NCBI RefSeq assembly: GCF_030296835.1
Contig: NZ_AP027922.1
Span: forward strand, 1,984,001 to 2,048,000
Direction of reading: 5' to 3'
Length of the DNA: 64,000 nucleotides
Origin: Pseudoalteromonas sp. MM1
GTDB lineage: Bacteria; Pseudomonadota; Gammaproteobacteria; Enterobacterales; Alteromonadaceae
Of the stretch, positions 39,221-62,495 are shown one piece after another (within the stretch, counting starts at the first letter, position 1; each line of letters opens with the position of its first letter). Below the pieces are notes generated by a model that worked only from the letters and a program-made list of their open reading frames with translations, was not told where the DNA came from and made no database searches. A program made the translations under genes and the position numbers.

Positions 39221-40340
39221 ATGTCATTCCTAAATAACTATAAAATAAAGACACGAATTTTGGCGCTAGTGCTCATTCCATTACTAATTGCTGGGCTTAA
39301 ATCAGTTAACAAAGTACGCTTCTCTTTGGCGCAGCAGCAAGCGATAAGTAAGGTTAATGCAATACTCGATTACGCTCATGTTACTTACCCACTGATCTCA
39401 AGCTTGTTAGAAGAAGTGTTTTACATAAGGTTGTATTTTGATACAGCTTCAGGTGCACAACAAGCGCAGAAACAGAGGCTCGCTTATCAACAAAACGCGC
39501 TAACAAATGCTAATCGGTTTAAACAATTCGTTACTGAGAACCTGCAGACAATTAAGCAATTTCCGACCTTTAATAACCACGTAGAAATAAAAAATAAACA
39601 ATTAAGTGATCCGCAAATAGCTGAAGAAAAAAATCACCTAAGTAAAGCATACACAGCGCAATTTAGTCGAAAAGTTCACACGATGTATGAAATTAACGAT
39701 CTCATCCGCAAACTATTAATAACATTGAGTGAAATTGAGGTCATCGCCAGTAGCGAACAACTGATAGGAAAAATGTCAAATGCGAACTATTACTTAGTCG
39801 CTAGCAGTATCGAACGCTCATTTCATGATAGCTTTATAAATACTGCAAGCAATACACAATTGGATGTATACATATACGGGGAAACTTTCAGAAGCGCGAC
39901 CGCAGTGCAAACTTATAATAGCCTACTTTATAATTTTACCACTGCAAATGCACAATCTGCGTTTACTCAAATGACGCAAAACGCGAGCTATTTAAAGTCT
40001 GAAGAAGTGGCGCTACAAGCCCGTGCAAACAACTATCAAACAATCAATAAACCGCTAAATATCGCATGAACTTGTACTTAAAGAGCTGATCGACATGGCC
40101 CTGCAAATTGCCAAAGCCACAGAAAAACAAAAATCTGTGCTTAATTTCATCAATAAGCAAATAACCTTGATCAGTACTTACGCTCAATCTGTAACAAGTA
40201 CTACCCAAAGTAACCAACAAACGGTCGATAACTTAACTGATATTGTTGAAGACTTAGAAAGCTACAATTATGAGTTTACTTTGGCTACGCCTACACCAAC
40301 ACCTTATAAGGAGTATTTCTATGAGCAATACAGTATTTAA
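39221..40340 (+). pseudogene. Methyl-accepting chemotaxis receptor remnant with nitrate/nitrite-sensing domain
   Basis: The first 282 residues have an N-terminal membrane helix (RILALVLIPLLIAGLKSV) and a helical NIT-type sensing domain (VNAILDYAHVTYPLISSLL, SSEQLIGKMSNANYYLVAS). The frame then stops at 40069. A short second frame (40095-40340) resembles the last part of a receptor (QQTVDNLTDIVEDLESYNYEF). The second membrane helix, HAMP and signalling hairpin are missing, so at least about 300 residues were deleted. It overlaps the start of the next gene. Confidence 0.7.
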
Positions 40341-43133: not shown

Positions 43134-45449
43134 TTATTTACTTTTCACGTCACCATAACGATTTTGATACAAGGATTTATGAACTTGTTTAGCCGCTTCG
43201 ACTAACTCTGGGTAGGGAATGTCTGTCGTTGTTACAAATCCAACATTGTAATTTTCACCATCATACGCCCTGCCAGTAATTGGCGAATCAATATATTGGA
43301 ACCAATGAGCACCAATTAAATATGGGTTATCAATTACTGTTTTCATATAAGTTTTATACATATCAGCACGATCGCTTTGATTAGCAGCATGTATGATGCC
43401 AGGATTCGGATGACCTGTATCGCCTGAACCAATATGAAATTCCCCAATAATTGTCGGCATATCAAGTTCTTTCAAAATGTCCCATGTCATCGGGTCTAAA
43501 CCTTCCCGATAATAGTTATAACTGATCACATCAGCATACTTTTTAGCAGACCAACGAGCTTCTGGCGATGTACCCCAAGAAGTAAATCTCGCTCCCATAT
43601 ACAGATGGTTAGGTAATACTGACTTTAAAGAATGGTTTACAACCTTAAAATATTCATCAGAGAAGCGCGTTAACAACCAAGAGAGATCTGCAATCATAGC
43701 ATCATTAAAATGACTGTCGTTTTTATAATTAACGCCAGTATTATCAAATAATTCCCAAGACTGAATAGATCTCTGCCATGCTTGGTTTAGCTGGCTAATG
43801 GTTTTATATTTTTGTTTTAGCATATCGCTGAACACTGATTTGGTCGGGCTATCTGCAGTTTTTTTAGATAACGCATCAAGCACGATACCATAGCGTAAGG
43901 TTGTTGAACCCTCACCTCCCCAACTCATTTCGTTATCAATAAACACCCCAATACACCAAGGGTTATTTTGTACCTCTTGGGCAATAACCTCGGTGGTTAT
44001 TTTCGCTCTCTTAACAAATTCTGGATCGAAAGGGTCAGGCATGGCTCCCCAATAATCAAAACCAGAACTCAGCCTTTTAAAGTCACCGATGATCCAACCA
44101 TTCGCAAAATAAGGAACTTGTTGATTGTTATAAAAACTAGCATCAGTCCAATTTCCAAATGAAGTGAACCCCCAGTCTTGCATTCTTTTTAAAGTTACTT
44201 CTCGCCATTTATCAATATAAGAACCTGGATATTGTTGACCATAGCGGCGTTCTAAATTTGCTTGGTAAAAGCTAAATACTTCACCATGTTGAATTGGCCC
44301 AAGATGAGACGAGCGCTTGTAACTATAATGATTTGCTAATTTATCATTATACTCTGGCAGCCAGTTAAACATGGCTCGTCGCTGTGGATAAGCAGTGTAA
44401 GCTGACTTTTGATATTCAGATAAATTACTATTTAAACCTTTGGAGTCTTCTGGGGTTACATCATCAGGGTCACGCTTTCTGACAGAATCATCACGATAGT
44501 CTATGCCTGTAAATGTTGTTGTGTTCGCCATTCTTGCGTTAGCAATACCAGAGGAAAAAAACAAATAGCCTTCAGGATCAACTAACGCCCATTTACCATT
44601 TACTTTTTCCGTACGAAAAAAGCCCGTTGCCGTTAACTTAGGGCCAAGCTTCCAACCACCAAATTTACTTCTATCAGGCCGTGGAGTTATTTTAGACAGT
44701 TCATTTATTTCTTTTTTTGCGATTGCTCTTAATTGTTGCTCAGAGCTAACTTTTAATGGGTAATTAAACTGTGTAGATTGACCAAACTGATCGACGATAT
44801 TTGCTAAAAATTCAGGGTTTTCATCGGGTATGGTTTCAAATCGAAGATTATCGATGGTTACTGCGGTTGGATTAATTTGTGTTTCTGTATAAATAGCGAT
44901 AATTTCAACTTGGCTAAAATCGACATTGAGTTTAGCGCCTCTCAAAATCATTTTACGTGCAGTTGTTTCAAAACTAGGAGGTGTATCTCTGAGCCCTGTA
45001 TCAACATTTAAAGTCTGGGAGTTGAGCTCAAAATATAATGTAGCATGCTCTTTAGTTGTTAGCCCAATTGTACGTCTTTGGACTTGTTTATCTTTTCCAG
45101 TGATATTCACACTGAGCATCACCGGAAAGTCACCATCATTCGCAACATCAAAAAATAAGGCATTACTACCTAACGAACTCAATTCCCATGGTTCATTTGG
45201 CTTGATTATGATCCCTGAAAACTCATGTTTATTCGAAAAAGTAAGCTGCAACACTTTGCTTTTATTTTGGATCACCTGTGTCGCTATATTTTTATTAGTG
45301 AGTGTATAACTGTTGCTAGCGTGTTCAAAGTCATCAATTAAAATAGTCTTGCTATCGTGCTGCAAGTCAAACTCCCTTGCAGCACCTTCACCGCTTAACA
45401 CTAACGCAGAATAAACAAAGACAGATAAACATCTAATTATTTTTTTCAT
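43134..45449 (-). CDS. GH50 beta-agarase (771 aa)
   Basis: The protein has a signal peptide (MKKIIRCLSVFVYSALVLSG, cut near EGAA) and an N-terminal beta-sandwich of about 180 residues (LIDDFEHASNSYTLTN to VTIDNLRFETIP), CBM-like. The GH50 (beta/alpha)8 domain then runs from about 250 to 765. Likely acid/base E507 lies in VFIDNEMSWGG and nucleophile E670 in PTIIGEFHIGSGDTGHPNPG. Family knowledge: GH50 enzymes release neoagarobiose or neoagarotetraose from agarose. It is the last gene of the operon, 67 bases after fecR, with its own copy of the 43-nt module. Confidence 0.94.
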   Translation of the reverse strand: MKKIIRCLSVFVYSALVLSGEGAAREFDLQHDSKTILIDDFEHASNSYTLTNKNIATQVIQNKSKVLQLTFSNKHEFSGIIIKPNEPWELSSLGSNALFFDVANDGDFPVMLSVNITGKDKQVQRRTIGLTTKEHATLYFELNSQTLNVDTGLRDTPPSFETTARKMILRGAKLNVDFSQVEIIAIYTETQINPTAVTIDNLRFETIPDENPEFLANIVDQFGQSTQFNYPLKVSSEQQLRAIAKKEINELSKITPRPDRSKFGGWKLGPKLTATGFFRTEKVNGKWALVDPEGYLFFSSGIANARMANTTTFTGIDYRDDSVRKRDPDDVTPEDSKGLNSNLSEYQKSAYTAYPQRRAMFNWLPEYNDKLANHYSYKRSSHLGPIQHGEVFSFYQANLERRYGQQYPGSYIDKWREVTLKRMQDWGFTSFGNWTDASFYNNQQVPYFANGWIIGDFKRLSSGFDYWGAMPDPFDPEFVKRAKITTEVIAQEVQNNPWCIGVFIDNEMSWGGEGSTTLRYGIVLDALSKKTADSPTKSVFSDMLKQKYKTISQLNQAWQRSIQSWELFDNTGVNYKNDSHFNDAMIADLSWLLTRFSDEYFKVVNHSLKSVLPNHLYMGARFTSWGTSPEARWSAKKYADVISYNYYREGLDPMTWDILKELDMPTIIGEFHIGSGDTGHPNPGIIHAANQSDRADMYKTYMKTVIDNPYLIGAHWFQYIDSPITGRAYDGENYNVGFVTTTDIPYPELVEAAKQVHKSLYQNRYGDVKSK

Positions 45450-45463
45450 TTTATTACCTTATA

Positions 45464-45506
45464 CTTTAACGAGTAATAGGTAATGTTCTGAAAACTAACT
45501 TTGACA
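45464..45506 (-). promoter_or_regulatory. 43-nt module upstream of GH50
   Basis: On the minus strand: TGTCA, 15 bases, then ACATTACCTATTACTCG and TTAAAG. It aligns without gaps to the module before GH16 (27 of 43 identical). It ends 14 bases from the start codon. It is a candidate ECF promoter or operator. Confidence 0.6.
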
Positions 45507-45516
45507 CATCTTTTTA

Positions 45517-47070
45517 CTAATTTAACTGATTACTTGTCATTAATTGTATTATTTGTTGTTGATTCAATGCAGCTTCCACCACATAAAGCTCATCTAACCC
45601 GCCTCTAAAGAACATTTGTTTTTCATGGGTTGCACCCTCGATGTAACCTATATTTTTGCCGATCGTAAGCGGCCTCGATGCTGGATGCTGTAGATTTGTC
45701 GCAACTTTAGCTATTGATTTCTTTTGAGTTTTTTCAAGCTTTCCATCAACGTATAACAAAACATGTGTGGCAAGATTGCTTTCAACACCACCATATAATA
45801 CCACGGCTATATGATGCCACTCATCATCTCGTAGATCCGTACTACCAACAATTTGAGCGTTATAGGTTCCTATTCTGATCCTACCTAATGGTCCATCGAT
45901 CAACTCAGGATTAGGGGAAATTTGCCACGCTGAATAATCCTGCTGTAATCCCCAGCTCACAATCCCATATGCGTGTTCAGGTAAGAAATCACTGGGGATT
46001 TTCAACCAGAAAGCAACTGTTCTAGGGTTATCACTACCAATTCCGGGATAATGTGTTTCCAGCCAGTTGTTCGTGCCATTAAAGCTAATTGCCTTATCAA
46101 ATACGCCCGCTATGTCTGTTAACGGTTCATCAATAGGAGATTTATCTGTGGCTAAATACTGCTGCCCATCAATACCCCGTCCGCTGGAGGGATAATTATG
46201 CTGCTGCTTTTTATCAAATGACCAATGTAATAAATGAGGCTCTTCTATTGAGTCTCCAGGCAATACACGCATAAAATCAGAGGGTACGCTAACAAAGCTG
46301 GTGACCTGATTATTTAAATCAAATGCTAATGCCTGATCTTTTTTAAGGAGTTGGTAAGACTGCATTTTGTTGCCACGTGCTTTTATTTCACCATCAAGCA
46401 CGTGTACTTGAGATTCACCGCTATTAGACACTTCGACACCAAATTCGGTGCCTAAATCTATAATTTCAGAACTTGGGGTATCAACTCTAAAACCAATTGC
46501 ATTTTCTGGCACTCTCGCCACTAACTTGCCATGATGAAGCGTTACTTTATCTTTGGACTGTAAATTCACTTTAACCGGTGCTTCTAAGACCAGTACCACG
46601 CCATTATCTAATAAAATTTCACTGTAACCATGTTCAAGAATAATGTCTCCTTGACCTAATTCACTGCCAACAGAAAAGTTGGCGTTATAAGAGGCGGTCA
46701 TTTTTGTGACTTCAGCAAACTTATTTGTGTAATCCAAGTGCTGTGCCATAAATATAACACTGACAAAAAGCATAATACTTGCAGCAAGCGCATACGGGCT
46801 TGAAAGCCAACTCATGGTATGTTTGGCCTGAACCGGCTTTTGCTGTTCGCTTAACTGTGCCATGACACTATGGGTAAACTTGTCTGATTGCACAACGGAT
46901 TGATGATGCGCTTTTAATAAACGTTCACTCGTCACATATTTACTGACTTGTGCAAGTAAATTAGCATCATGCTGACAGGCTTCGAGTAACTCATCGGCAA
47001 CATCTTCACCAGCTAAATACGCAGCTAGTAATTGTTGTTGGTGCGTCGTCATTTGTTCAGCCATGCTCAT
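45517..47070 (-). CDS. FecR-family anti-sigma factor with C-terminal LamG lectin domain (517 aa)
   Basis: Residues 1-85 are the cytosolic helical anti-sigma region (QQQLLAAYLAGEDVADELLE). A single membrane segment (89-109, SSPYALAASIMLFVSVIFMA) follows. The periplasmic FecR domain (138-232) reads GYSEILLDNGVVLVLEAPVK and VDTPSSEIIDLGTEFGVEV. Residues 279-515 are a LamG/concanavalin-like jellyroll: HWSFDKKQQHNYPSSG, SFNGTNNWLETHYPG, FWLKIPSDFLPEHAYGI, WHHIAVVLYGGVESNLATH and LDELYVVEAALNQQQI. It overlaps the sigma gene by four bases. The lectin-like domain probably senses a sugar; this is inferred. Confidence 0.92.
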   Translation of the reverse strand: MSMAEQMTTHQQQLLAAYLAGEDVADELLEACQHDANLLAQVSKYVTSERLLKAHHQSVVQSDKFTHSVMAQLSEQQKPVQAKHTMSWLSSPYALAASIMLFVSVIFMAQHLDYTNKFAEVTKMTASYNANFSVGSELGQGDIILEHGYSEILLDNGVVLVLEAPVKVNLQSKDKVTLHHGKLVARVPENAIGFRVDTPSSEIIDLGTEFGVEVSNSGESQVHVLDGEIKARGNKMQSYQLLKKDQALAFDLNNQVTSFVSVPSDFMRVLPGDSIEEPHLLHWSFDKKQQHNYPSSGRGIDGQQYLATDKSPIDEPLTDIAGVFDKAISFNGTNNWLETHYPGIGSDNPRTVAFWLKIPSDFLPEHAYGIVSWGLQQDYSAWQISPNPELIDGPLGRIRIGTYNAQIVGSTDLRDDEWHHIAVVLYGGVESNLATHVLLYVDGKLEKTQKKSIAKVATNLQHPASRPLTIGKNIGYIEGATHEKQMFFRGGLDELYVVEAALNQQQIIQLMTSNQLN

Positions 47071-47651
47071 AGTTGCTGTTCCTGTATTCTTTTATCAATA
47101 CATGTTTTCAATGTTTGACGAATTCTAAATAAACGCATAGTCATAGTAGAGTGTTTATCTTCATATTTACGACACAGCTCGGCTAAGGACACACCTAATG
47201 TGTAATGTTCAGTTAATAAATTACGCATTTTATCGCTTAGTTTTTCAAGGCAAATGGTCAAATTATCAAACATATCAAGCTCACTACCCTCATGTATGTG
47301 TTCATCAATGTGTTGATTTATTAACTGCTCTAATTCATCTGCACTACCTAGTGGAACAGCTCGGTGTTTACGTTGATGATTTTTTAGTAAATAAGCGGCA
47401 ATCCCTCGAAGCCAAGCTAAAAAAGAGCTTTCATTGTTAAAATCAGCAATTTTTTTGAAAGCCACAATAAAAGTTTCTTGCGCTAAATCTTCAGCATCAT
47501 GGGGCGTCTTCAATCGAACGACTAAAAACGCCTTCACTGCAGACTGATAACGGTCAACTAACAGAGCATACGCAGCAACATTCCCTTGTAATATTTCATC
47601 AACTATAAAAGCGTCACTTTTACCATTTATTGGTATTATATTTTCTTTCAA
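47067..47651 (-). CDS. ECF-type RNA polymerase sigma factor (194 aa)
   Basis: Region 2 reads ALLVDRYQSAVKAFLVVRLK, PHDAEDLAQETFIVAFKKIA and SSFLAWLRGIAAYLLKNHQR. Region 4 reads CLEKLSDKMRNLLTEHYTLG and VSLAELCRKYEDKHSTMTMR. It resembles the sigma factors that planctomycetes and verrucomicrobia pair with FecR-LamG proteins (Rhodopirellula/Verrucomicrobium family). It sits inside the agar operon, ten bases after the lactonase, and overlaps its anti-sigma gene. This implies positive feedback, with the operon making its own activator. Confidence 0.93.
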   Translation of the reverse strand: MKENIIPINGKSDAFIVDEILQGNVAAYALLVDRYQSAVKAFLVVRLKTPHDAEDLAQETFIVAFKKIADFNNESSFLAWLRGIAAYLLKNHQRKHRAVPLGSADELEQLINQHIDEHIHEGSELDMFDNLTICLEKLSDKMRNLLTEHYTLGVSLAELCRKYEDKHSTMTMRLFRIRQTLKTCIDKRIQEQQL

Positions 47652-47660
47652 ATCAGCGCC

Positions 47661-48806
47661 CTAATTGAAATAACTGACATAAGATGGGGCATTAATGTGC
47701 AGCTGACTCTGTGTTGAATATAATTTTCCAGATACTGAATCGCGCTTAATAACCACAACATTATTACTATATTGATTAGCTACTAATAACTGTTTCTGTG
47801 ATTTAGAAAAATTAAAATCTCGTGGATGTAAACCACCACTTGAAACTTTATTAATTAGTTGAAGTCCGGGTTCTGCCGTTAATTGATAGCCATAAATAGT
47901 ATCTTCTCCACGTAGTGCCACGTATACATGCCGACCATCCTCACTGATACGAATTGCCGATGCAAGATTTTGTTGCTGGCCAGTTGTGGGCATTATATTT
48001 GTTTGTGAAACGTGTAATAAATCGCCATTTTGCAATATTTTGAAGATACTAATACTGTTACTCAGTTCATTTAAACTAAACACTAATTTTTTAGTGGGAT
48101 GAAAAGCAAGATGACGAGGCCCATCTCCTGGTGTTAATGTAATGCGATGTACTGGTGTAAAATCATTTTTGAAGCTATCAAAAACAATTATCTCGTCAGT
48201 CCCTAAATCCGTTAAATATAAATAGCGGCTTTGCTTATCCCAGCCAGCAAAATGTAAATGAGCACTATGTTGTCTAGGAGTAACACTACTTCCTGTATTT
48301 GTAAATTGACCCCGTAATGTTAATAAACCAGATCTGTCAATATCAAACAACTCACTATTACCTGTTGTGTAATTAACAACTGCTAACTGTTGACGATCAT
48401 CCGAGACATTAATATGACATAGCCCTTCTCCTTCAATTGGGTATGTTTTTAGCGTTGAAAACGCATTACCTTGCCAGTCATACACATTAATAACAGATTT
48501 TTTATCAAGCGTTCTGCCAATGCTATACAATTTGTTTATTGTCGGTTGCCAATTTAGGTAGCTTGGTTCGATTGCCGCCGCCACCACACTTTCGTTAGTT
48601 AATTGTCCATGATATTCGTTATAAGAAACTAAATATATCCCCTGATCAGGCTCATTTGTGTAGCTCCCGACTAAAAAATAACTAAGTTCAGATTGTTCAT
48701 CTCTGATACTTTGACAACCGCCAAGGCAAAAAGTAATAGAGATAAAAACAAACCACTGAGTGCAGTTTTTAAGACGAATATGTAATCCTGTTAACCATAA
48801 GCTCAT
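47661..48806 (-). CDS. Lactonase-family beta-propeller lipoprotein (381 aa)
   Basis: The N-terminus has a hydrophobic segment and lipobox LGGC (Cys31), so it probably faces the periplasm. The rest is the seven-bladed lactonase/6-phosphogluconolactonase-like propeller (PF10282): FLVGSYTNEPDQGIYLVSY, SYLNWQPTINKLYSIGR, PGDGPRHLAFHPTKKLVFSL and SEDGRHVYVALRGEDTIYGY. Family members open aldonolactones, but many have no proven activity. It lies between the FAD oxidoreductase and the sigma factor, 14 and 9 bases from each, and is clearly co-transcribed. Confidence 0.88.
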   Translation of the reverse strand: MSLWLTGLHIRLKNCTQWFVFISITFCLGGCQSIRDEQSELSYFLVGSYTNEPDQGIYLVSYNEYHGQLTNESVVAAAIEPSYLNWQPTINKLYSIGRTLDKKSVINVYDWQGNAFSTLKTYPIEGEGLCHINVSDDRQQLAVVNYTTGNSELFDIDRSGLLTLRGQFTNTGSSVTPRQHSAHLHFAGWDKQSRYLYLTDLGTDEIIVFDSFKNDFTPVHRITLTPGDGPRHLAFHPTKKLVFSLNELSNSISIFKILQNGDLLHVSQTNIMPTTGQQQNLASAIRISEDGRHVYVALRGEDTIYGYQLTAEPGLQLINKVSSGGLHPRDFNFSKSQKQLLVANQYSNNVVVIKRDSVSGKLYSTQSQLHINAPSYVSYFN

Positions 48807-48820
48807 TTATTAAATTCCCT

Positions 48821-51106
48821 TTACTTAATTTGAATTTCAAACAGTGCTGCAGGTACATTGTTTGACGGGTGAGTAAATTCTAGAATTAATTGTTGAGTCG
48901 TGACAGGCTCAGCTAAATCGATTTTATTAATGCTTTGATAATTACCGCTAACGTGTGCGATCACCTCACCTGAATCTGTTTTTATTGTATAGTTTTGAAC
49001 ACAATATGGTATCTGATCTTCATAATGCTCCATTAATACAGTTTCTAAAGCATGGTCAAAGTCACTATCAAAATACAGCACTATTTGACTCATCGTTACT
49101 TTTTCTGGCCATATAAAATTTAGAGTTGGCGACGGATCTGCAAAGTCAGCAACCCAAGCATTAGGTTGTAGCCAAGGCCTCACAAAGCCATTAATGACCT
49201 GTGTAGCTTGGTAATTATGAGCTGCGGGAGAGATACTCATTGCCAAATTTTGCCCATGTGGTCGCCGCGCTGGTGTCCAAAACTCAAACTCTTCAAGACC
49301 ACTATTTGCAGGTACTATTTGTTTGCCTTTATTTGACACCGCTTTATGAACTTTATTGAACACAATCATAGTGCCAGTAATCAGCTGCTCTGAGGTAGCG
49401 AGCTCTATTTCATTATTTTGTAAGAAACAAATAAATCCATATTGTTCCTCTAAACTGCAATCACTAAAATCAAACACGAGCGTACTTTCCCCCGCCCTAA
49501 CAGGCAAACTGATCGTTTTATTTATAACGTCTGGGGTATAGTTTTCATGCTTGATACTAGTGCGTAATTGACACGTTAATTGTGTCTCTTGATGAGCAAA
49601 TATCGCGATGCTAATTGTTGGTCCTTGCCCTTTTACAAAAGCAACCAACTGTGCACACGAGGAATCTAATGGCATTGTGCTGCCACTAGGTTGAAAACCA
49701 TTGAACGCAAGCTCGCTGGATGAAGTAATCGATGCTAGGGCTGCTAAATTATTGTACTTATCTAAACGAACCCCTGGAATACTTTGGCCATTAAGATTTA
49801 ACCTTTGCTGTAATTGAACCATGTGCGCTGGGAGCATCAGTTCTTTGGGCATGACATTGAGTTGGTTACACATAGCTGCAGCTTCTCCCACAGCTTGACC
49901 ACCGTGTGCGCAAGTGATCATAACCCGAGTTGAACCAAATGCCATATGCGTTGCACTGATGATCCGTCCAGCATAATATAAATTTTCTATATCTCGGCTA
50001 ACAAAACAGCGGTACGGAATTTGGTAGACCCCTTTAGAATGATATTGAGAACAAGGTGGTCGTTCACTGTATATACCTTCACTAGGGTGAATATCTATCG
50101 CCCAGCCGCCATAAGAAACAGCATCATTGAACTGCGTTTGCTCAATTATATCTTGCTGCTTGATCATATATTCTCCTTCAAAACGCCTGCTTTCGCGTTT
50201 GCCAGGAATGGTTCCTACCCATTCTAAGGTTAGGTTTTCGACATCATCGAATTTACCACTATTTTTTATGTAGTCCCAAATTCCGTAAACGAGCTTCCAA
50301 AGCTCCCATTTAATATCTTCAGTTTCATAAATAGTATCTCGAATGCCGCCAAACTCTATCCACCAAAATTTACAGCCGGAGTCACTTCCTGCAATATCTT
50401 TACAGCGAGGAATTGCTTCTATTTGTTCATAGGTGTAAGCAAAATCTGGCGCTTTGTAGCTAATCGGCTGATCCATTTTTTTACTGTAGAAAAATAAGGT
50501 GTGTCCGAGTAACTCCATTTTTTCTTCATCAGATGCTAATAGCTCACCAAACTCTGCTTTTGATTCAGCTCCTATCCTAAACCCAGCTCCTGCATTAAAT
50601 GCAACAATACCATCGCCGGTTGCATCACAAAATAATGGCGCGCTGATAATATAGTGCGTTGAATTTTGACTACAAAATGCTTCTACACTCGAGATTCTAG
50701 TGCTGTGCCGTTTATTTACATCAACGACAGAGGTGTTTAACAACAAGGTAATATTTTTCTCGGCAATTACTTTATCAAGCAAAATGGTATCAAATATTAA
50801 TGGGTTACCATGTCTATTTAACTTAAGATTATCCAACATAATTTCATCAATAACCCCTCCTTCCCGTGACCAGCGATTATTGTTACCCATGTGGGAGGTT
50901 GCGCCTAAGGCCCATAATCTTACTTCGCTTGACGCATTGCCACCGAGTACGGGACGATCTTGAATTAACACAACCTTGCTACCCGCTCGCGCCGCACTGA
51001 TTGCAGCACATGTACCAGCTAAACCACCACCAGCAACAACAAACTGAGTATTTAATTGTTGTTTTTTATTTTCGCGGGTAGCGGCATTAAAGTTTTGCTT
51101 AATCAT
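48821..51106 (-). CDS. FAD-dependent oxidoreductase with C-terminal discoidin-like domain (761 aa)
   Basis: The FAD motif VVAGGGLAGTCAAISAARAG (GGGLAG at 26-31) is followed by DRPVLGGNASSEVRLW and FCDATGDGIVAFNAGAGFRIG, the pattern of the PF12831 family. The cofactor domain closes with LYYAGRIISATHMAFGSTRV and MITCAHGGQAVGEAAAMC. Residues about 610-761 look like an F5/8 type C (discoidin) beta-sandwich: QATQVINGFVRPWLQPNAWV and TLNFIWPEKVTMSQIVLYFD. No signal peptide, so it is cytosolic. Substrate unknown. Start overlaps the GH117 stop by four bases. Confidence 0.85.
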   Translation of the reverse strand: MIKQNFNAATRENKKQQLNTQFVVAGGGLAGTCAAISAARAGSKVVLIQDRPVLGGNASSEVRLWALGATSHMGNNNRWSREGGVIDEIMLDNLKLNRHGNPLIFDTILLDKVIAEKNITLLLNTSVVDVNKRHSTRISSVEAFCSQNSTHYIISAPLFCDATGDGIVAFNAGAGFRIGAESKAEFGELLASDEEKMELLGHTLFFYSKKMDQPISYKAPDFAYTYEQIEAIPRCKDIAGSDSGCKFWWIEFGGIRDTIYETEDIKWELWKLVYGIWDYIKNSGKFDDVENLTLEWVGTIPGKRESRRFEGEYMIKQQDIIEQTQFNDAVSYGGWAIDIHPSEGIYSERPPCSQYHSKGVYQIPYRCFVSRDIENLYYAGRIISATHMAFGSTRVMITCAHGGQAVGEAAAMCNQLNVMPKELMLPAHMVQLQQRLNLNGQSIPGVRLDKYNNLAALASITSSSELAFNGFQPSGSTMPLDSSCAQLVAFVKGQGPTISIAIFAHQETQLTCQLRTSIKHENYTPDVINKTISLPVRAGESTLVFDFSDCSLEEQYGFICFLQNNEIELATSEQLITGTMIVFNKVHKAVSNKGKQIVPANSGLEEFEFWTPARRPHGQNLAMSISPAAHNYQATQVINGFVRPWLQPNAWVADFADPSPTLNFIWPEKVTMSQIVLYFDSDFDHALETVLMEHYEDQIPYCVQNYTIKTDSGEVIAHVSGNYQSINKIDLAEPVTTQQLILEFTHPSNNVPAALFEIQIK

Positions 51107-52305
51107 GATTTTTTCTCTTTTTCTTGGTCGTGGGATGAGCGTTTAATTTTTAATTCGGGGCTTAATGACTGCGCAAAATACACACTAGGATGATGAGGTA
51201 CATCCGTAATTTTTAATTCTTTCTCAAGCTCATTTGCCATTAAACTACAGTCAAATCGAGCTAAAAAACTGTGTTTGTTGAGCGCTTTCTTGTCTGAAAA
51301 ATGACATAACCCCCACTCAATACCGTTTTCATTTCCTTCACTATTAAATGCATTGGCAACATAAGGCCCTGCTGCAATTGGCATCAATGAAGTCACCGCC
51401 GCAATCGAAAAATTCACACCGTCAGGTGAATATTGAATAGTGTTACTTTCGTTACCATTTCTGATCGAAAACGCAGCAATGCCGGAGCCAAAGGGAAAAT
51501 AAGTGGTTTCATGACCTGAATTCAAAATAGGGTTCAGAGGGTGTTTTTCAAAAGGCCCTAACGGGTTACTCGCAATTGCTAAACCATTGCCAACTAAATA
51601 ATCTGGCCTATCGCCATAAGCAGCTTTATAATATAAATGTATTTTCCCTTTATAAATCAGTAAATATGGATCATGAATCGAGAATTGATCCCAACTACCA
51701 GGTTCACCATTGTCAATAATCACTTTGCCATGTGGGCGCCATGGCCCCGTTGGTTTATCGGCAACTGATAAGGTAACTGGGCAATGATCGCCTTTTTTAC
51801 CACTAGCTTCATTAAAAGCTTGATAATATAGATAATATTTATTTTCATAAATTAGAATGTCTGGTGTGCTAACCGATCTCCAACCTAGCTGAGGATAATC
51901 AGGTCTTGGCACGGCAATTCCTTGTTCAATCCAGTCAAATCCGTTAATACTGGTGGCATAGCCTATTTCAGATAAATCCCAATCAGTGGAGGGAATCAAT
52001 TCGTTACAGTGCTTCGCCCCTTTTGGTGGGAATTGTGTGCACCGTTTTGTGTACCAAACGTAGTAGAGACCATCAACTTTTATAATTTTAGATGGGTCAC
52101 GTCTTGAAAGAGTGCCATCATCATTATGATAGTCAAAACCTGAAAGTTCAGTGTATTTAAAGCTAGTAAATAAAGGATTGTCTTCAGGACGAGGGGTTAA
52201 ATAACTGTCATATAACCTCGACATTGCAACACTCAATTCTCGTGCTGGTTTTTTAGTTGGAATATCCCACGGGTAACTTTGCTGTTTGGAACTGTTATTG
52301 CTCAT
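51103..52305 (-). CDS. GH117 alpha-1,3-neoagarobiose (anhydro-L-galactose) hydrolase
   Basis: The 400-residue protein is a five-bladed propeller of family GH117. The N-terminal family motif SxAxxR is present as SVAMSR (25-30), used in dimer domain swap. The catalytic motif SRRDPSKIIKVDGLYYVWYT (base D70), later FSIHDPYLLIYKGKIHLYYK and GHETTYFPFGSGIAAFS follow. It cuts the non-reducing anhydro-L-galactose from neoagaro-oligosaccharides. There is no signal peptide, so it acts in the cytosol on imported neoagarobiose. It overlaps the symporter gene by 11 bases. Confidence 0.94.
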   Translation of the reverse strand: MSNNSSKQQSYPWDIPTKKPARELSVAMSRLYDSYLTPRPEDNPLFTSFKYTELSGFDYHNDDGTLSRRDPSKIIKVDGLYYVWYTKRCTQFPPKGAKHCNELIPSTDWDLSEIGYATSINGFDWIEQGIAVPRPDYPQLGWRSVSTPDILIYENKYYLYYQAFNEASGKKGDHCPVTLSVADKPTGPWRPHGKVIIDNGEPGSWDQFSIHDPYLLIYKGKIHLYYKAAYGDRPDYLVGNGLAIASNPLGPFEKHPLNPILNSGHETTYFPFGSGIAAFSIRNGNESNTIQYSPDGVNFSIAAVTSLMPIAAGPYVANAFNSEGNENGIEWGLCHFSDKKALNKHSFLARFDCSLMANELEKELKITDVPHHPSVYFAQSLSPELKIKRSSHDQEKEKKS

Positions 52306-53980
52306 TGCTACACTCCTTTACAGCTTTACTTCTAAACTTAAACACTAAAATACTGCCTAATATAAAAATGCCACTACTTACGATGGTTATTTCCATCTTT
52401 CCTGTGGTAGCAATTGCGGCTAATGCCAGCATGATCGCCCCAGTGGAAAGAATGCCAAACCCTAAGACGCGAATAGCATGATTATTATCTGTGCTTTTTT
52501 CTGGAGTTATTAATTCAACAGTCGGTTTTATTTCACTTAATTCAATTAAGTAGTTTTGATAACATGCAGGTGTTTGGTCTTTTGCTCTTAAATACAATTC
52601 AAATATTGTAAGCATCATTACAGGAAATAACACACCCAACATCATTTCTTGTGCTCTGTCTAAGCTGAAATCAAATAACCATGGACTCACAAATTTGAAA
52701 AGTACATTCACCAGTAAGCTAAACAGTGTCGTTATTAAAATCGTTTTCCCTGTTTGATAACGAGAAAATAACAACCAGATAGGCGGTAAAAATAACGGCC
52801 CGCCTGTCAGCGCAGCCATCGTCATTACCACTTCAACAACACCGCCAAGTAAAGGAATTAGTAACGCAACAATAATAGTAATAAAGCCAAGTACTGCGGT
52901 TGCAATACGACCGATTTTCACTAGCTGAGTTTGAGATGCATTAGGTTTAATTTGTTTATATATGTCATTACTGATCACCCCTGCCGCTATATTTAAAGAG
53001 GTGTTAATGGAGCTTGATGTAGCAAAGACCATACCCGCTAACATTAAACCAAGCATGCCTACCGGCAATACTTCTTTGCACATTTGTAAATAAGCCCCTT
53101 CACTTTCAAACCCTACTAAACTAGGGTTCATCGTTCGGTAAATCATCGGGGCTAACATCCACACTACAGGGCAAATAAGATATAGAATTGCAAATAATCC
53201 TCCGACCTTCTTTGCATCCTTTGGCGTTTTCACACTAGTGAAGCGTTGAATATAGGACCAGTTACCAGCAATAAAAAATAAGTTATATAAGGCAAATGCA
53301 AAAATAAATTCCCATGAATACTCATCACTTACTAAGTTAAAAAAATCATCGGGGGCTTTATCGATAAAGTTCTCAATGCCACCAATCGCCTCAAATGATA
53401 GCGGTACTACAATTAACACAGCTGCCGTGAGCACCACGAATTGCAAAATGTCAGTAATTATAACGGCCCACAGCCCCCCCACAGCAGTGTAAGCTAAGAT
53501 CAATAAGCCTAAAATGATGACGGTATATTCAAGAGATAAACCAGTAGCAACTTCCACTATTTTTGCTACAGGATATAAAAAAGCCCCCGTAGAAAAGCTC
53601 GCTATCAAAAGAAAAATATAGGTATATGTTCTTTGTACATTTAAGCCAAGGCGCTGTTTAATATATTCGGCTGCGGTTAATACACCGGTTTTCTGCCATT
53701 TAGGGGCAATAAATAAAGCAATCAACACGCCAGCTAAACACATAGTCCATTGAATAGTGATCGCCACCCAGCCATGCTTATATGCAATGGCTCCCCAAAC
53801 AACAAATGTTCCTGCCGAGAAGAAACTCATAAAAAGTGACAACCCGCTCATCCACCAAGGTAGCGCCCCTCCCGCAGAGAAAAAGCTTTTCATGCTCTTC
53901 CCTGCGGTTGAAAAGCTTAATCCGCAACCTATGATCAACAAAGAAAATACAGCTATCACAGTGATATCAATGACATGCAT
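52295..53980 (-). CDS. Sodium/solute symporter (SSS family)
   Basis: The 561-residue inner-membrane protein has about 13 helices. Family signatures are VIDITVIAVFSLLIIGCGLSF, SGLSLFMSFFSAGTFVVWGA, GAFLYPVAKIVEVATGLSLE, ILAYTAVGGLWAVIITDILQ and AGMVFATSSSINTSLNIAAG. SSS transporters in agar, alginate and carrageenan loci import mono- or disaccharides with sodium. Position between GH16 and GH117 supports import of neoagarobiose or galactose. It begins four bases after the GH16 stop codon. Confidence 0.92.
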   Translation of the reverse strand: MHVIDITVIAVFSLLIIGCGLSFSTAGKSMKSFFSAGGALPWWMSGLSLFMSFFSAGTFVVWGAIAYKHGWVAITIQWTMCLAGVLIALFIAPKWQKTGVLTAAEYIKQRLGLNVQRTYTYIFLLIASFSTGAFLYPVAKIVEVATGLSLEYTVIILGLLILAYTAVGGLWAVIITDILQFVVLTAAVLIVVPLSFEAIGGIENFIDKAPDDFFNLVSDEYSWEFIFAFALYNLFFIAGNWSYIQRFTSVKTPKDAKKVGGLFAILYLICPVVWMLAPMIYRTMNPSLVGFESEGAYLQMCKEVLPVGMLGLMLAGMVFATSSSINTSLNIAAGVISNDIYKQIKPNASQTQLVKIGRIATAVLGFITIIVALLIPLLGGVVEVVMTMAALTGGPLFLPPIWLLFSRYQTGKTILITTLFSLLVNVLFKFVSPWLFDFSLDRAQEMMLGVLFPVMMLTIFELYLRAKDQTPACYQNYLIELSEIKPTVELITPEKSTDNNHAIRVLGFGILSTGAIMLALAAIATTGKMEITIVSSGIFILGSILVFKFRSKAVKECSNEQ

Positions 53981-53984
53981 GTTC

Positions 53985-55259
53985 TTAGTGCTCGCTATTT
54001 TCTTTTCGGGTGTAGTATCTAACCCAATCTATCGCCATGCTAGTACCATCAATATCATCGCTAACAGGACCGGCTATGGCTGCTTTTAAAATAGCTAAAC
54101 TAAATAACATCGTTGTTTCACTAAAACAGACATCATTTCTCATGGTGTAGTAAAGCTCGCCATCAAAATAAAAGTTAAAGTAGTCTTTATCCCACTCAAT
54201 CCCATAAGTATGGAAATCTTTTGAAAAATCAGCGACGTCTGCAGCATTATATGAGGTAATTTTTTGCCAATTATTACCATCGTGATACTCAATGCTGTAA
54301 TCAGAAATTAAGTTGCGATAAGCACCTTTATCAACGCCATGCTCTTGCAGCCAACCATTTATAAATTGCACAGCGCCAATTTCCTGTGGCTCATCCCAAC
54401 TAAGTTGTAAAAATTTTTCACCATGTTTTTTAGACACCCAACGGGTTTGTGGGTTGCCATCGATTGCAAAAGACTCCTCCGACATCAATTTATTAAATAA
54501 GCCGTTTGTTTTTATTGTCACATTATCGACTTGCGCTAAATTATTTGCGCTGTTTACTTGCTCAACATCAAATGCATTTGGGTAGCTAGCGCTGGGGGGG
54601 AACACTCTAAATTCAGAAATATGAATAGAAGCAGGGTTATTCGATGTTAAACGAATTTTTTTGCTCTTAATTGGTTTCTTAAACACCAGAGTATGATCAG
54701 GTTTACCGATTAACGTATGGTGTAATTGTTTATCACTGTGTGCTACACGCCCATTTGGTAAAGTATAGGTATCAGTCCAATTATGTACGTTGGTATTTAT
54801 GATATTCGGGAAATGGCCTTCATTAACATCAATCTCGCATGCCTTTAAATCACCTTTCACACCTTGTTTTGGCCAAAACCAAAATGAGTTATTCGTACCA
54901 TAAGCGCCAGCATATTTAAAACGAGCTTCAAAATAGCCGTAATGAAATGAACGTTTTGACCATACATTACCGGTCGTCCACTCTTGACCACCACGTGATT
55001 CTTTTTTCGCTATTAAATGCAGTACACCGTCTTTAACTTGTGCATTATCACGCCAACGACTGCTTAGCACCCACGGGTTTTCTGTCGGCCCATTTTGCGA
55101 AATCCAATTTTTATCTAATTCTGAATCAGCATAAGTAAATTCATCACTCCATTGTAATTGCCATATTGATGAGTCAAGTTTGCGAGTTTGCTCAGCACTA
55201 ACACAAGACGATGTGACGACTAATGCTGCGAGGGTACATTTAGAAAATACTTTAAACAT
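53985..55259 (-). CDS. GH16 endo-galactanase with an inserted discoidin-like domain (424 aa)
   Basis: A signal peptide (MFKVFSKCTLAALVVTSSCV, cut near VSA) leads into a GH16 jellyroll. The catalytic motif ACEIDVNEGHFPN gives nucleophile E142, D144 and acid/base E147 (the beta-bulge ExDxxE form). After residue 170 the fold is interrupted. Residues about 190-345 are an F5/8 type C-like domain (AIDGNPQTRWVSKKHGEKF, LQLSWDEPQEIGAVQFINGW). GH16 then resumes as DFHTYGIEWDKDYFNFYFDG and AIDWVRYYTR. Neighbours suggest an agarase or porphyranase; the GH16 subfamily cannot be fixed by eye. Confidence 0.88.
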   Translation of the reverse strand: MFKVFSKCTLAALVVTSSCVSAEQTRKLDSSIWQLQWSDEFTYADSELDKNWISQNGPTENPWVLSSRWRDNAQVKDGVLHLIAKKESRGGQEWTTGNVWSKRSFHYGYFEARFKYAGAYGTNNSFWFWPKQGVKGDLKACEIDVNEGHFPNIINTNVHNWTDTYTLPNGRVAHSDKQLHHTLIGKPDHTLVFKKPIKSKKIRLTSNNPASIHISEFRVFPPSASYPNAFDVEQVNSANNLAQVDNVTIKTNGLFNKLMSEESFAIDGNPQTRWVSKKHGEKFLQLSWDEPQEIGAVQFINGWLQEHGVDKGAYRNLISDYSIEYHDGNNWQKITSYNAADVADFSKDFHTYGIEWDKDYFNFYFDGELYYTMRNDVCFSETTMLFSLAILKAAIAGPVSDDIDGTSMAIDWVRYYTRKENSEH

Positions 55260-55299: not shown

Positions 55300-55342
55300 T
55301 TTTGTCGTATGCTAGGTATTGTCTTGAGAATGAAAAGTGACA
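55300..55342 (-). promoter_or_regulatory. 43-nt module upstream of GH16
   Basis: On the minus strand: TGTCA, 15 bases, then ACAATACCTAGCATACG and ACAAAA. It matches the module before GH50 with identical spacing and ends 40 bases before the GH16 start codon. It lies after the receptor terminator, where the downstream operon needs its own promoter. Confidence 0.6.
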
Positions 55343-55368
55343 CAAATTATTTTATTTTCATGAAAATA

Positions 55369-55400
55369 AAAAAGCCCGCAGCGATGCTGCGGGCTTTGCG
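55369..55400 (-). terminator. Terminator after the TonB-dependent receptor
   Basis: AAGCCCGCAGC and GCTGCGGGCTT form an 11-bp stem with loop GAT and a T run on the minus strand. It separates the receptor transcript from the GH16-led operon, though read-through is possible. Confidence 0.92.
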
Positions 55401-55418: not shown

Positions 55419-58400
55419 TTAGAAATTAATACGGGTATTAAGTCTAAATGTACGTCCGGTATGATATTGATAAACCGTACGTGACTTAGTTGCTTCGCCT
55501 TCAAGTGGGCTACCTTCATCAAAAGTGACACCGCCCGCTGCTAAAAATCGACTAGTGAAGTACTGACGAACTCCTTCATCTGTTAAGTTAGCGACTTGGA
55601 AAGACACTGAAATCATATCTGAAACTTGATAAGTAGCTGAGAAATCAAGTGTTTGACGACCTTCTTCCCAAAGCGAACCATTCTCCCAAGAACGTTGTAC
55701 TAACTGATCTGTAGTCCCTTGATAAGATAGACGTAATTGGTGACCATTTTTCTCCCAGAAACCCGTTAAGTTGTAGCTGTGTTCAGGTGTATAAGCAACA
55801 GCAAGTGAAGGCACTTTAACGTTACTATCGATAGAAGAAACTTCTTGCTCATATTCGCTATCTTGATAAGTGTAGTTAGCTTGTAAACCTAAACCAGACC
55901 AAATACCTGGTAGGTTGTCGTAGGTTTGCATGTATTGTAGCTCTAGACCTTTGATAGACGCACCTTTACCATTTTTAATACGGGTAGTATTAAATTTGGC
56001 ACACATTTGTTCTAAATCGCCTGAGTACATCCAATCTTCTTGATAATCTGTACTACCTTGAAAACGTTTAGGCATACAGCCTTCTAAACTATCTTGACCG
56101 GCAATCAGAACGAGATCGTTTGGATCATAGGTTTCGCCTTCTGTTAAACCTACATCTCGTAAATCATCCATGTAAGTCACAATGGTTTCTGACTCTTCAA
56201 AGTTAGTCATCTCTTTGTAAAATAACGTAGCAGCTAACAAACCTGACTTGTTAAAGTACCACTCATAAGATAAATCAAGGTTAAATGATTCAAGTGGATC
56301 TAATTTAGGGTTGGTAAGTGTAATAGTGTTATTACGATTATCACCCCCCCATTGTGTTTCTTTTACTTTAAAACCAGGGCGAAGAGAATCTATTTGCGGA
56401 CGCGCCATGGTCTTAGAAGCCGCAAAACGAATAATGGTATCTTCGTCATACAAATAATTTAGATTTAAACTCGGTAGGAATACGTCATATTCATGCTCAT
56501 CAGTTACACTGAAAGAACGTAAACTTCGGTCTTCAGTTGGCAATAAGTTACCATTTTCATCAAACTTACGTTCACCATACACATAGTTTTTCTCTGTTGA
56601 AACATCAGAGTGACGCCATAACCACCATTCTGTCTCATTTGGGTTGCCTTGTATTGCATTAGGATCATGACACGGGCCTTGATCAGGTAACGCAACGTCA
56701 TCGGTTAAATCATTTGTGCCCTTGGTATCGTAGCCTAAACCATCGACACGTGACCAGCGAGATTCAGCATTGTAGTCTGTGCCGTAAAATAAAATAGGTG
56801 CACATTCAGGTAGGCTGGTATCACGTAACTCAGCTAATTTAAATGGATCCATTAAGCGAGCAGCATTTGACGGGTCAAACGCAAATTGCACACCTGAAGC
56901 ACCTTGCACTTCAACTTCAGTTCTCACATAGCGAACACCCACATCACCAGTGATCTTGCCGTCCATTAACTCAAAGTTTAGCTTTGTATAGAGCGCTAAA
57001 TTATCTAATTCTGTGTTACGGGTATTTGAATCATCGGTATTAAATGCGACTTCGCTACTACCTTGAGCAACTTCAAATGCCTTAAATGCAGAGAAACGGT
57101 TCCAGCCATCTGTAATGCTATCACGACCATAACCAAGACCTGCCATAAAGTCATCAACTGGGAACTCTTCACCATCGGTGACCATTTCTCCGGTAATATC
57201 ACGCAGACCGCTTCCCAGTACTGCAGGATTACCAGTGTAAGGATTCAATACTACGACACCCTCACCAACAGTGCTAAATGAACCTACTTGTGCATCAACA
57301 TACTTAGTACGATTAGACCACTTAGCACCAAACTCTATAGAACGAAAGTTATCTGAGTCTAAAACATAATCAAAGTCTACAAATAATGATTTTTGTGTAT
57401 CTTCAACTTCATTTAATGTACGGCTCATATATGAAAGGTGCTGGGCTCTTAACTCATCAGCATTAAAACCTGTAGTACTATAGTTATCCCACACATTTAG
57501 CGGATCACCAAAGTTATCATTTGGGCCATAATCAATTAAACCCTCACCTGAAACTAACGTACATACCGAGCTACTGGTACAATCATAGCCCACAGGCTCT
57601 ATATCTTCTGGCGGTACGTTATTTATTATCCACGCATTAATATTGCCAAAATTTTGTAATGCCACATACACAGAGTTATTGGGGATTTGCTCAGTTTTAG
57701 AGTAACCAACACCTGCTTCCATTGCAAAGGAATCAGTAAAACTATGATTCATATCCAATGAAAGTATTTGATTTTTATTTTCAAAATCACCTTCAGATTG
57801 TACCAACCCACCATTGCCAAAGCGATTTACAAACTTAGTGAATGTATTGGTTTCTAAATCAATGGTACGCCAATCTGCTTCGGGATCTGTAAATAAGGCA
57901 GGTCCTGTCCCACCTAAACCAGGGTCAACACCTTCCACTAAGTTTCCATATTGATTAGAGCGAGTATTAATGCCATGCATAGAGTTATTTATATCTTGCT
58001 TGCCTAAAATCGCATTAAAATTGAACTCAGTTTTTTCTGATGCAATCCACTGCAAACCGATATTAAAATTGGTTCTATCATTTTCACTTTCATGATATTG
58101 ATATTGAGTCGTTTGAGGTGCTATCCCCACAACATTTTCAACAATATTACCGTTGGTATCGGTAGCAAGAGGAGACTCTGTCGCAAACCAATCTATTGCT
58201 GAGTATTGATCTTTACGATAAGCATTGGTTTCTTTAACGGCTGTAACAACCACACCAAACGTATCATCAAAAAACTTACGAGAAAAAGTGCCCGACACTT
58301 TATAATTATCTTCTTCTGATAGGTCGTTGTAACGGCCTTCAAGTGTCATGGTGTTTATTTCATAATTTAAATCAAGTGGCTTAGTGGTAGTTAGGTTAAT

Positions 58401-58886
58401 ATTTGCACCTAACGCCCCTTCTTCATGATCTGCACTTGGAGTTTTTACAACTTCGATTTTAGATAAGATATCTGAAGAATACTGTGATAAATCGACACCT
58501 TGGCTATAACCTGTTGAGCCAAGCTGAACACCATTCATACTGATATTATTTTGTTGTGAATTCGCACCACGTACAGTCACTCGCGCACCTTCACCGTCAA
58601 CTGTCTGCACTGACACACCCGTTACACGTGAGAGTGCATCGGCAATGTTTTGGTCTGTCGATTTACCAATATCCTCAGCGTTAATTGAATCAACTACGTT
58701 TTCAGCAAAACGTTTATCATTAATTGATTTTTTTACACTTGCCGCTAAGCCACTTACTTCAATAATTTCAATATCATCTTCAGCTTTTGTTTTTTCATCT
58801 TCTTGTTGTTGTGCATAAATCAAATTCGAAGCAAATAGCGCTGCTGTCAATGCGCTGAGTTTAAATGTCTTCTTAATCGTCGTCAT
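55419..58886 (-). CDS. TonB-dependent receptor, TonB-Xanth-Caul type (1155 aa)
   Basis: A signal peptide (ALTAALFASNLIYAQQ) is followed by a short acidic stretch and a TonB-box-like IEIIEVSGLAASVKKS. The plug then reads INAEDIGKSTDQNIADALSR, TGVSVQTVDGEGARVTVRGA and QNNISMNGVQLGSTGYSQG. A large 22-strand barrel ends in FRLNTRINF. There is no N-terminal STN signalling domain: only about 20 residues lie between the signal peptide and the TonB box. It would import agaro-oligosaccharides across the outer membrane. A sigma-70-like promoter and terminator frame it. Confidence 0.93.
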   Translation of the reverse strand: MTTIKKTFKLSALTAALFASNLIYAQQQEDEKTKAEDDIEIIEVSGLAASVKKSINDKRFAENVVDSINAEDIGKSTDQNIADALSRVTGVSVQTVDGEGARVTVRGANSQQNNISMNGVQLGSTGYSQGVDLSQYSSDILSKIEVVKTPSADHEEGALGANINLTTTKPLDLNYEINTMTLEGRYNDLSEEDNYKVSGTFSRKFFDDTFGVVVTAVKETNAYRKDQYSAIDWFATESPLATDTNGNIVENVVGIAPQTTQYQYHESENDRTNFNIGLQWIASEKTEFNFNAILGKQDINNSMHGINTRSNQYGNLVEGVDPGLGGTGPALFTDPEADWRTIDLETNTFTKFVNRFGNGGLVQSEGDFENKNQILSLDMNHSFTDSFAMEAGVGYSKTEQIPNNSVYVALQNFGNINAWIINNVPPEDIEPVGYDCTSSSVCTLVSGEGLIDYGPNDNFGDPLNVWDNYSTTGFNADELRAQHLSYMSRTLNEVEDTQKSLFVDFDYVLDSDNFRSIEFGAKWSNRTKYVDAQVGSFSTVGEGVVVLNPYTGNPAVLGSGLRDITGEMVTDGEEFPVDDFMAGLGYGRDSITDGWNRFSAFKAFEVAQGSSEVAFNTDDSNTRNTELDNLALYTKLNFELMDGKITGDVGVRYVRTEVEVQGASGVQFAFDPSNAARLMDPFKLAELRDTSLPECAPILFYGTDYNAESRWSRVDGLGYDTKGTNDLTDDVALPDQGPCHDPNAIQGNPNETEWWLWRHSDVSTEKNYVYGERKFDENGNLLPTEDRSLRSFSVTDEHEYDVFLPSLNLNYLYDEDTIIRFAASKTMARPQIDSLRPGFKVKETQWGGDNRNNTITLTNPKLDPLESFNLDLSYEWYFNKSGLLAATLFYKEMTNFEESETIVTYMDDLRDVGLTEGETYDPNDLVLIAGQDSLEGCMPKRFQGSTDYQEDWMYSGDLEQMCAKFNTTRIKNGKGASIKGLELQYMQTYDNLPGIWSGLGLQANYTYQDSEYEQEVSSIDSNVKVPSLAVAYTPEHSYNLTGFWEKNGHQLRLSYQGTTDQLVQRSWENGSLWEEGRQTLDFSATYQVSDMISVSFQVANLTDEGVRQYFTSRFLAAGGVTFDEGSPLEGEATKSRTVYQYHTGRTFRLNTRINF

Positions 58887-58940: not shown

Positions 58941-58987
58941 AACATAGTATGAACGGCAATTCATTGTCAACTGTATTTTGTTAACAA
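58941..58987 (-). promoter_or_regulatory. Putative promoter and palindrome of the TonB-dependent receptor
   Basis: On the minus strand TTGACA (58970-58965), 18 bases, then TATGTT (58946-58941) form a plausible sigma-70 promoter. The palindrome TTGTTAACAA (58987-58978) lies just upstream of the -35 box and could bind a regulator. It lacks the 43-nt module seen before GH16 and GH50. Confidence 0.5.
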
Positions 58988-62485: not shown

Positions 62486-62495
62486 TAGATTGTCC

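Follow-up and report, generated by a model that had tools for sequence, protein, structure and literature searches.

A putative sigma/anti-sigma switch with a LamG jellyroll at an agarase locus of Pseudoalteromonas sp. MM1

Can an anti-sigma factor read an algal sugar directly? The question is raised by a locus of Pseudoalteromonas sp. MM1 (contig NZ_AP027922.1, positions 1,984,001 to 2,048,000). The whole stretch of 64,000 nucleotides is called the window, and positions below refer to it. In this locus, the gene of an extracytoplasmic function (ECF) sigma factor overlaps by 4 bp that of a FecR-type protein, a presumed anti-sigma factor ending in a LamG jellyroll (FecR-LamG). For polysaccharide loci, much is known about signalling in Bacteroidota and clostridia, and less in marine Gammaproteobacteria and in the Planctomycetes-Verrucomicrobia-Chlamydiae (PVC) phyla. 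An initial annotation proposed that LamG senses agaro-oligosaccharide in the periplasm and releases the sigma factor, which then amplifies its own operon.

On balance, we lean towards a sigma/anti-sigma switch dedicated to the use of red-algal galactans, with LamG as the direct galactan sensor. Direct sugar binding by LamG is plausible. The reading draws on computed protein anatomy, gene linkage, a promoter motif and its placement, co-occurrence with agarases, and a genome in which no STN receptor was detected. The initial interpretation was partly supported. A trigger other than the STN relay, autoregulation (as a prediction) and the link to agarolysis stood; a receptor within the operon, a lack of precedent and strict agar specificity were not supported.

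The FecR-LamG protein and its sigma factor

Coordinates and gene order confirmed the sigma/anti-sigma pair, its overlap and its setting among enzyme genes. Pfam and an AlphaFold model bore out the annotated anatomy: a cytosolic part, one membrane helix, a FecR domain and a jellyroll of about 235 residues.

47067..47651, minus strand: ECF-type sigma factor gene, 194 amino acids (aa), TTG start (Sigma70_r2; TIGR02989)
45517..47070, minus strand: putative anti-sigma gene fecR, encoding FecR-LamG, 517 aa (Pfam, AlphaFold model)
46801..47070, minus strand: cytosolic part, residues 1-90, presumed anti-sigma domain (sub-threshold RseA_N; helices in the model)
46732..46797, minus strand: predicted membrane helix, residues 92-113 (helix in the model; hydrophobic by reading)
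46276..46716, minus strand: periplasmic FecR domain, residues 119-265 (beta part in the AlphaFold model)
46447..46452, minus strand: candidate self-cleavage site G207-T208 in DLGTEFGV (GT conservation; FoxR precedent)
45526..46236, minus strand: LamG jellyroll, presumed sensor, residues 279-515 (Pfam, model)

In the model (mean predicted local distance difference test 85.0, predicted template modelling score 0.61), cytosolic helices were followed by helix 92-113, which we read as the membrane-spanning one, the beta FecR part (119-265) and the jellyroll (~279-515). Laminin_G_3 (PF13385) matched residues 331-507 with 50.4 bits (Pfam cut-off 27.6), and FecR (PF04773) matched residues 148-230 with 35.2 bits (cut-off 24). 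At 1e-3, the two were present in 42/42 and 39/42 family members, respectively. RseA_N reached 22.5 bits on residues 11-84, helical in the model, which is under the Pfam cut-off of 24; two of the 42 members matched it. For the sigma factor, the top NCBIfam match among the best 25 of 73 families was TIGR02989 (Sig-70_gvs1), with 123.6 bits against a cut-off of 124.55 (0.95 bits short).

The best structural match of LamG was domain 4 of the arabinanase AbnA, solved with an arabino-oligosaccharide; matches also included laminin G (LG) and pentraxin PTX3 domains. The FecR part matched PupR. Mean identity to 41 homologues was 0.56 for FecR, 0.54 for LamG and 0.29 for the cytosolic part. Sigma distances correlated with LamG distances (r 0.85) and with distances in the cytosolic part (r 0.87), which is expected of parts inherited together as a unit and does not by itself demonstrate contact.

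FoxR self-cleaves at a GT, according to the available part of PMC11637429. A GT was found at the 207-208 position in 20/21 orthologues (GE at locus L095) and 18/20 paralogues, and it aligns with the LGT of a second FecR-like protein of the genome (locus L016; weak alignment, E 0.51). The FecR domain of FecR-LamG probably self-cleaves at G207-T208, judging from these residues.

Distribution, gene linkage and predicted promoters

A protein search found 679 relatives among 7999 candidates scored. Among the 120 relatives listed, PF13385 was present in all and PF04773 in all but nine (counted by hand), and the closest was from Pseudoalteromonas fuliginea (91% identical). Several of the listed species names refer to agar; other relatives came from Lentisphaera, Pontiella and verrucomicrobial bins. 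A plasmid origin was considered and rejected; two plasmid records matched, one of them full-length (Catenovulum adriaticum).

Genomes were searched with a 42-row profile. Match counts for the family and phylum samples are lower bounds, with few candidates scored per genome (mostly 3 in the family sample). In the window's family, 13/395 genomes matched at 1e-30, and 12 of them held 15 orthologues above 680 bits; the other genomes of the same genus in this sample had no match. The sole match at 1e-60 in a class-wide sample was the window's own genome (1/274). Of 387 genomes in the phylum to which a Pedosphaera bin belongs, 19 matched at 1e-60, with six loci above 630 bits. Scanning genome contigs with the single sequence gave 15 loci, at 24-35% identity only. 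For analysis, 20 of 22 family loci and 20 of 29 phylum loci were taken, the window's own and low scorers being left out. Loci above 630 bits were treated as orthologues (21 including the window) and the other 20 as paralogues.

The sigma gene lay directly upstream of fecR-LamG at 21/21 orthologous loci. Within stretches of ~10 kb on each side, it was the only other gene cluster common to all of them. Agarase_CBM (PF17992; CBM, carbohydrate-binding module) was found in all 12 own-family carriers, among 34/395 genomes with this domain (hypergeometric 2e-14), which supports the annotated link to agar degradation. By genus, the numbers were 6/6 carriers among 11/52 (2e-5); the carrier genomes are not independent, 7/12 belonging to one genus (g50).

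Two sites in the window are predicted to depend on this sigma factor. One precedes the operon that runs from a glycoside hydrolase (GH) family 16 gene to fecR, the other a GH50 gene.

55318..55344, minus strand: predicted sigma-dependent promoter TGTGTCA-N15-ACAAT, before the GH16-to-fecR operon
45482..45508, minus strand: predicted sigma-dependent promoter TGTGTCA-N15-ACATT, before GH50

The motif was first spotted by reading upstream regions, as GTGTCA, 15 or 16 bases and ACAWT before operons and GH50. It was counted as GTGTCA-N15/16-ACAW in upstream regions from -200 to +40, with block-shuffled controls. There were 21 matches at 13/15 loci of the window's family (182 regions; shuffle mean 0.19) and nine at 5/6 loci of the verrucomicrobial phylum (75 regions; shuffle mean 0.02). 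The 20 paralogue loci gave one match (252 regions; shuffle mean 0.08). Reversed and swapped patterns gave 0 or 1 match per locus group. Of the 30 matches at orthologous loci, four are open to doubt (L094 c1, L103 c4, L085 c8, L107 c12). The strict motif was missing at L089, L090 and L105, being off by one base at L089 and L105. GH50-cluster genes carried it at L082, L084, L087 and L093. The lone paralogue match precedes the sigma gene of L100, which adjoins a gene for a FecR-like protein with a weak, sub-threshold CBM_4_9 match in place of LamG (L100:8224-10134, minus strand) and a sulfatase-cluster gene.

Since the motif was counted at loci that also served to define it, these numbers are a description with controls and not a held-out test; no further orthologues for such a test were found in 43, 177 and 8 genomes. 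At L133 (G225), the motif lies 53 bp before the GH16 ATG, in a region unread when the motif was defined. The own genome had eight matches. Six fall within open frames of 100 codons or more, counted from stop to stop; the two outside such frames are the sites of this locus. The total is at background (1 to 15 in 39 congeners; reversed control 8), and a large regulon was rejected on this ground; the predicted regulon is therefore local and rests on placement. The motif ahead of the sigma operon supports, as a prediction, the annotated amplification of the operon by its own sigma factor.

A different site, TGAAAC-N16-ACAWT, was also first seen by eye. It occurs at four distant paralogue loci (L096, L097, L099, L101), where FecR-LamG/sigma pairs adjoin planctomycete-type DUF1592 and DUF1552 genes; all four matches in 509 upstream regions lie before those operons. 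The -35 element thus varies with sigma type while the -10 element is constant, which supports sigma-specific promoters.

The proposed switch, its alternatives and known relatives

At rest, the sigma factor would be bound by the cytosolic part of FecR-LamG and so kept at the inner membrane. Self-cleavage of the FecR domain at G207-T208 would probably have taken place, the LamG half staying on non-covalently. A galactan fragment of agar or porphyran type in the periplasm would bind LamG directly and thereby open the FecR half to proteolysis in the periplasm and within the membrane, freeing the sigma factor. The latter would then drive two GTGTCA-N15-ACAWT promoters, that of its own operon (GH16 to anti-sigma) and that of the GH50 agarase. 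We infer the anti-sigma and promoter activities, the self-cleavage, the proteolysis step and the identity of the ligand.

Some results weigh against this reading. Concerning agar specificity, the six verrucomicrobial-phylum orthologues adjoin sulfatases (4/6), GH2, GH29, GH95 and a protein of ~810 aa (some of these genes were scanned), and the GH50 cluster is absent from all six loci. By the criteria used here, only five LamG positions separate orthologues from paralogues, and 40 of 65 invariant ones are common to verrucomicrobial paralogues. The sole other sensor swap seen, CBM_4_9 at L100, falls under the Pfam cut-off. With orthologues beside sulfatases and without the GH50 cluster, strict agar specificity was not supported.

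LamG might instead contact a periplasmic or outer-membrane protein, such as a pathway enzyme or transporter, that reports the substrate as STN does for FecA. We consider this unlikely. Several folds of the laminin LG/pentraxin type bind proteins, and laminin LG and PTX3 domains are among the LamG matches. Protein contact is also how FecR-type proteins are usually read, according to the available part of PMC11637429. These points are set against a best structural match that is sugar-bound and against the linkage data: no cluster except sigma is common to the 21 loci, and that of the window's TonB receptor was seen at no other locus (in the same stretches, those of L082 and L085 ending near the operon head). 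Somewhat less likely still is a sugar-sensing pair whose ligand is another red-algal galactan feature, namely sulfated porphyran or carrageenan fragments, and not an agarose oligosaccharide. Sulfatase-cluster genes at the 4/6 verrucomicrobial and at 6/15 own-family orthologous loci (the cluster being named from one member), GH29 and GH95 genes at some orthologous loci, and a window GH117-like enzyme nearest to 4u6d/4u6b and not to anhydro-galactosidases point in this direction. Agarose is favoured by the motif before the beta-agarase gene here and before GH50-cluster genes at the four loci named above, and by Agarase_CBM genes in every own-family carrier.

A LamG that is a passive or envelope-stabilising module, with a general envelope signal and a separate regulator sensing agar, appears very improbable. 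In its favour, distant FecR-LamG paralogues adjoin DUF1592/DUF1552 genes of unknown function, so that LamG need not imply a polysaccharide; the predicted two-promoter regulon restricted to this locus and the narrow distribution tied to agarase genomes, down to the own genome alone in the class sample, speak against it. Least credible, and largely refuted already, is a classical relay from FecA to FecR whose STN receptor would be encoded at another place in the genome. The PupR match of the FecR part would fit, as would the second FecI-FecR-like pair of the own genome (L016; G000:C1, ~1487-1490 kb), which has a sub-threshold FecR_C match. However, STN had no Pfam match in the TonB receptor at 55419-58886, and the own genome (2 contigs, completeness 100) held two STN matches only, by reading PilQ- and MshL-like secretins. 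A FecA-type relay is therefore unlikely. FecR_C matched 0/42 family members, LamG standing in its place, and none of the 42 matched the N-terminal domain type that we take to be DUF4880. The relay was rejected on the missing STN receptor and FecR_C, and the initial claim of a receptor without STN and a trigger distinct from FecA-FecR was supported.

The preferred galactan switch has known relatives. FecR, FoxR and PupR share with FecR-LamG the FecR beta domain with a GT site and a partner sigma factor, but carry an STN-like C-terminal domain (FoxR 248-328, in the available part of PMC11637429) where FecR-LamG has LamG; here, no STN receptor and no DUF4880-type N-terminus were detected. Clostridial RsgI, as far as the accessible parts of PMC4711584 and PMC12203970 describe it, is a membrane anti-sigma factor with a cytosolic inhibitor, a membrane helix, a self-cleaving periplasmic domain and a C-terminal sugar-binding sensor; SigI is autoregulated and drives polysaccharide-degradation genes. 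RsgI/SigI of Clostridium thermocellum has the same overall layout, assembled here from FecR parts with LamG as the putative sensor, and is a precedent for a one-protein sugar trigger (PMC4711584, in part). The two appear to differ in sigma class, judging from the best 25 of 73 NCBIfam families, and differ in anti-sigma domains (no RsgI-type N-terminal domain was matched on FecR-LamG by Pfam, and 0 NCBIfam families), and the clostridial sensor sits on the surface of a Gram-positive cell, whereas here a FecR plus LamG, presumably periplasmic, would serve a local two-promoter regulon. Sig-70_gvs1 sigma factors of Rhodopirellula/Verrucomicrobium are the best, sub-cut-off family match of the sigma factor, here in a gammaproteobacterium. 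To our knowledge, no polysaccharide locus is known for the Leptospira pair LIC_12756/LIC_12757. This FecR-like regulator with an ECF sigma factor resembles the present pair, with receptors reported to lack an N-terminal extension, but 'carbohydrate' occurs 0 times in the available text (PMC12155086). Near the FecR-LamG pair of L104, a Ser/Thr protein kinase that carries LamG as well as leucine-rich repeats is encoded (L104:13358-16399, minus strand); it likewise has LamG on a signalling protein, but is a kinase and not an anti-sigma factor.

Full-text literature searches found no paper on FecR-LamG, and the domain arrangement is already in public databases under generic names. In concept, the switch is a variation on RsgI and FecR. 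Within the reach of these searches, no description was found of the promoter pair, of the local regulon with its two promoters or of the linkage across phyla. More tentatively, FecR anti-sigma factors whose lectin domain can be swapped (LamG, perhaps CBM4_9) may form a widespread family in Gammaproteobacteria and the PVC phyla, each member a polysaccharide receptor in a single protein, by convergence with clostridial RsgI. The -35 would be private to each sigma type (GTGTCA, TGAAAC) and the ACAWT -10 shared, each locus would couple one glycan to a few promoters of its own, and module and promoter would move between phyla together. The switch is concrete and testable: its predicted promoters and presumed sensor domain are named, and its regulon is predicted to comprise two promoters. 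It illustrates how one domain swap could turn a receptor-relay protein into a direct receptor, and would also provide a sigma/promoter pair responsive to seaweed sugar.

The operon and its surroundings

The operon is read as GH16, sodium:solute symporter (SSF), GH117, flavin adenine dinucleotide (FAD) oxidoreductase, lactonase, sigma and fecR. The genes around the pair are as follows.

55419..58886, minus strand: TonB-dependent receptor without STN, probably a separate unit
55371..55397, minus strand: terminator-like hairpin of 12 pairs, between the TonB receptor and the sigma operon
53985..55259, minus strand: GH16 enzyme with an F5/8 type C-like insertion, first operon gene
52295..53980, minus strand: SSF
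51103..52305, minus strand: GH117-like enzyme (nearest solved structures 4u6d and 4u6b, then anhydro-galactosidases)
48821..51106, minus strand: FAD-dependent oxidoreductase (PF12831)
47661..48806, minus strand: beta-propeller lactonase (Pfam)
43134..45449, minus strand: beta-agarase, which we take to be GH50 (solved beta-agarase 4bq2, 806.7 bits)

The GH16 enzyme has kept EIDVNE, presumably its catalytic motif. Its F5/8 type C-like domain apparently sits inside the catalytic domain, and the cluster occurs at 10 loci. The GH117-like enzyme is far closer to 4u6d/4u6b than to solved anhydro-galactosidases, so it may have an activity other than the hydrolysis of neoagarobiose. The GH50 gene starts 67 bp beyond fecR. 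Among the 15 window-family loci, GH16-type genes recurred at 10, GH117-type at nine, the FAD oxidoreductase at 12 and GH50-type at seven.

The hairpin lies between the TonB receptor and GH16, so the receptor is probably a separate transcription unit; with its cluster also missing from the other loci within the analysed stretches, operon membership is unlikely. A sigma70-like site, TTGACA-N18-TATGTT, precedes the receptor (58941-58970); it carries less weight, as the region shows no excess of such sites (45 against an expected 53.9).

At six loci, a family of ~810 aa (cluster c4: L102-L108, L112, L114, L116-L119) lies directly 3' of fecR-LamG, and its genes follow the motif at L102, L104 and L106. 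The one member scanned had no Pfam or PDB match. An agarase role was rejected, given no profile similarity to the GH50, GH16, GH117, GH2, GH95, sulfatase or c15 clusters.

Three further Agarase_CBM genes (G000:C1:2052818, 2067527, 2089151), with no strict promoter motif nearby, lie 5 to 41 kb past the window end; the agar region therefore continues beyond it. Near the GH50 gene, an FG-GAP/UnbV_ASPIC protein is encoded (40270-42249, plus strand), and a gene of the same cluster is found in L085. Close to the locus, galE and a gene of galactokinase type (61457-63650, minus strand) fit a release of galactose.
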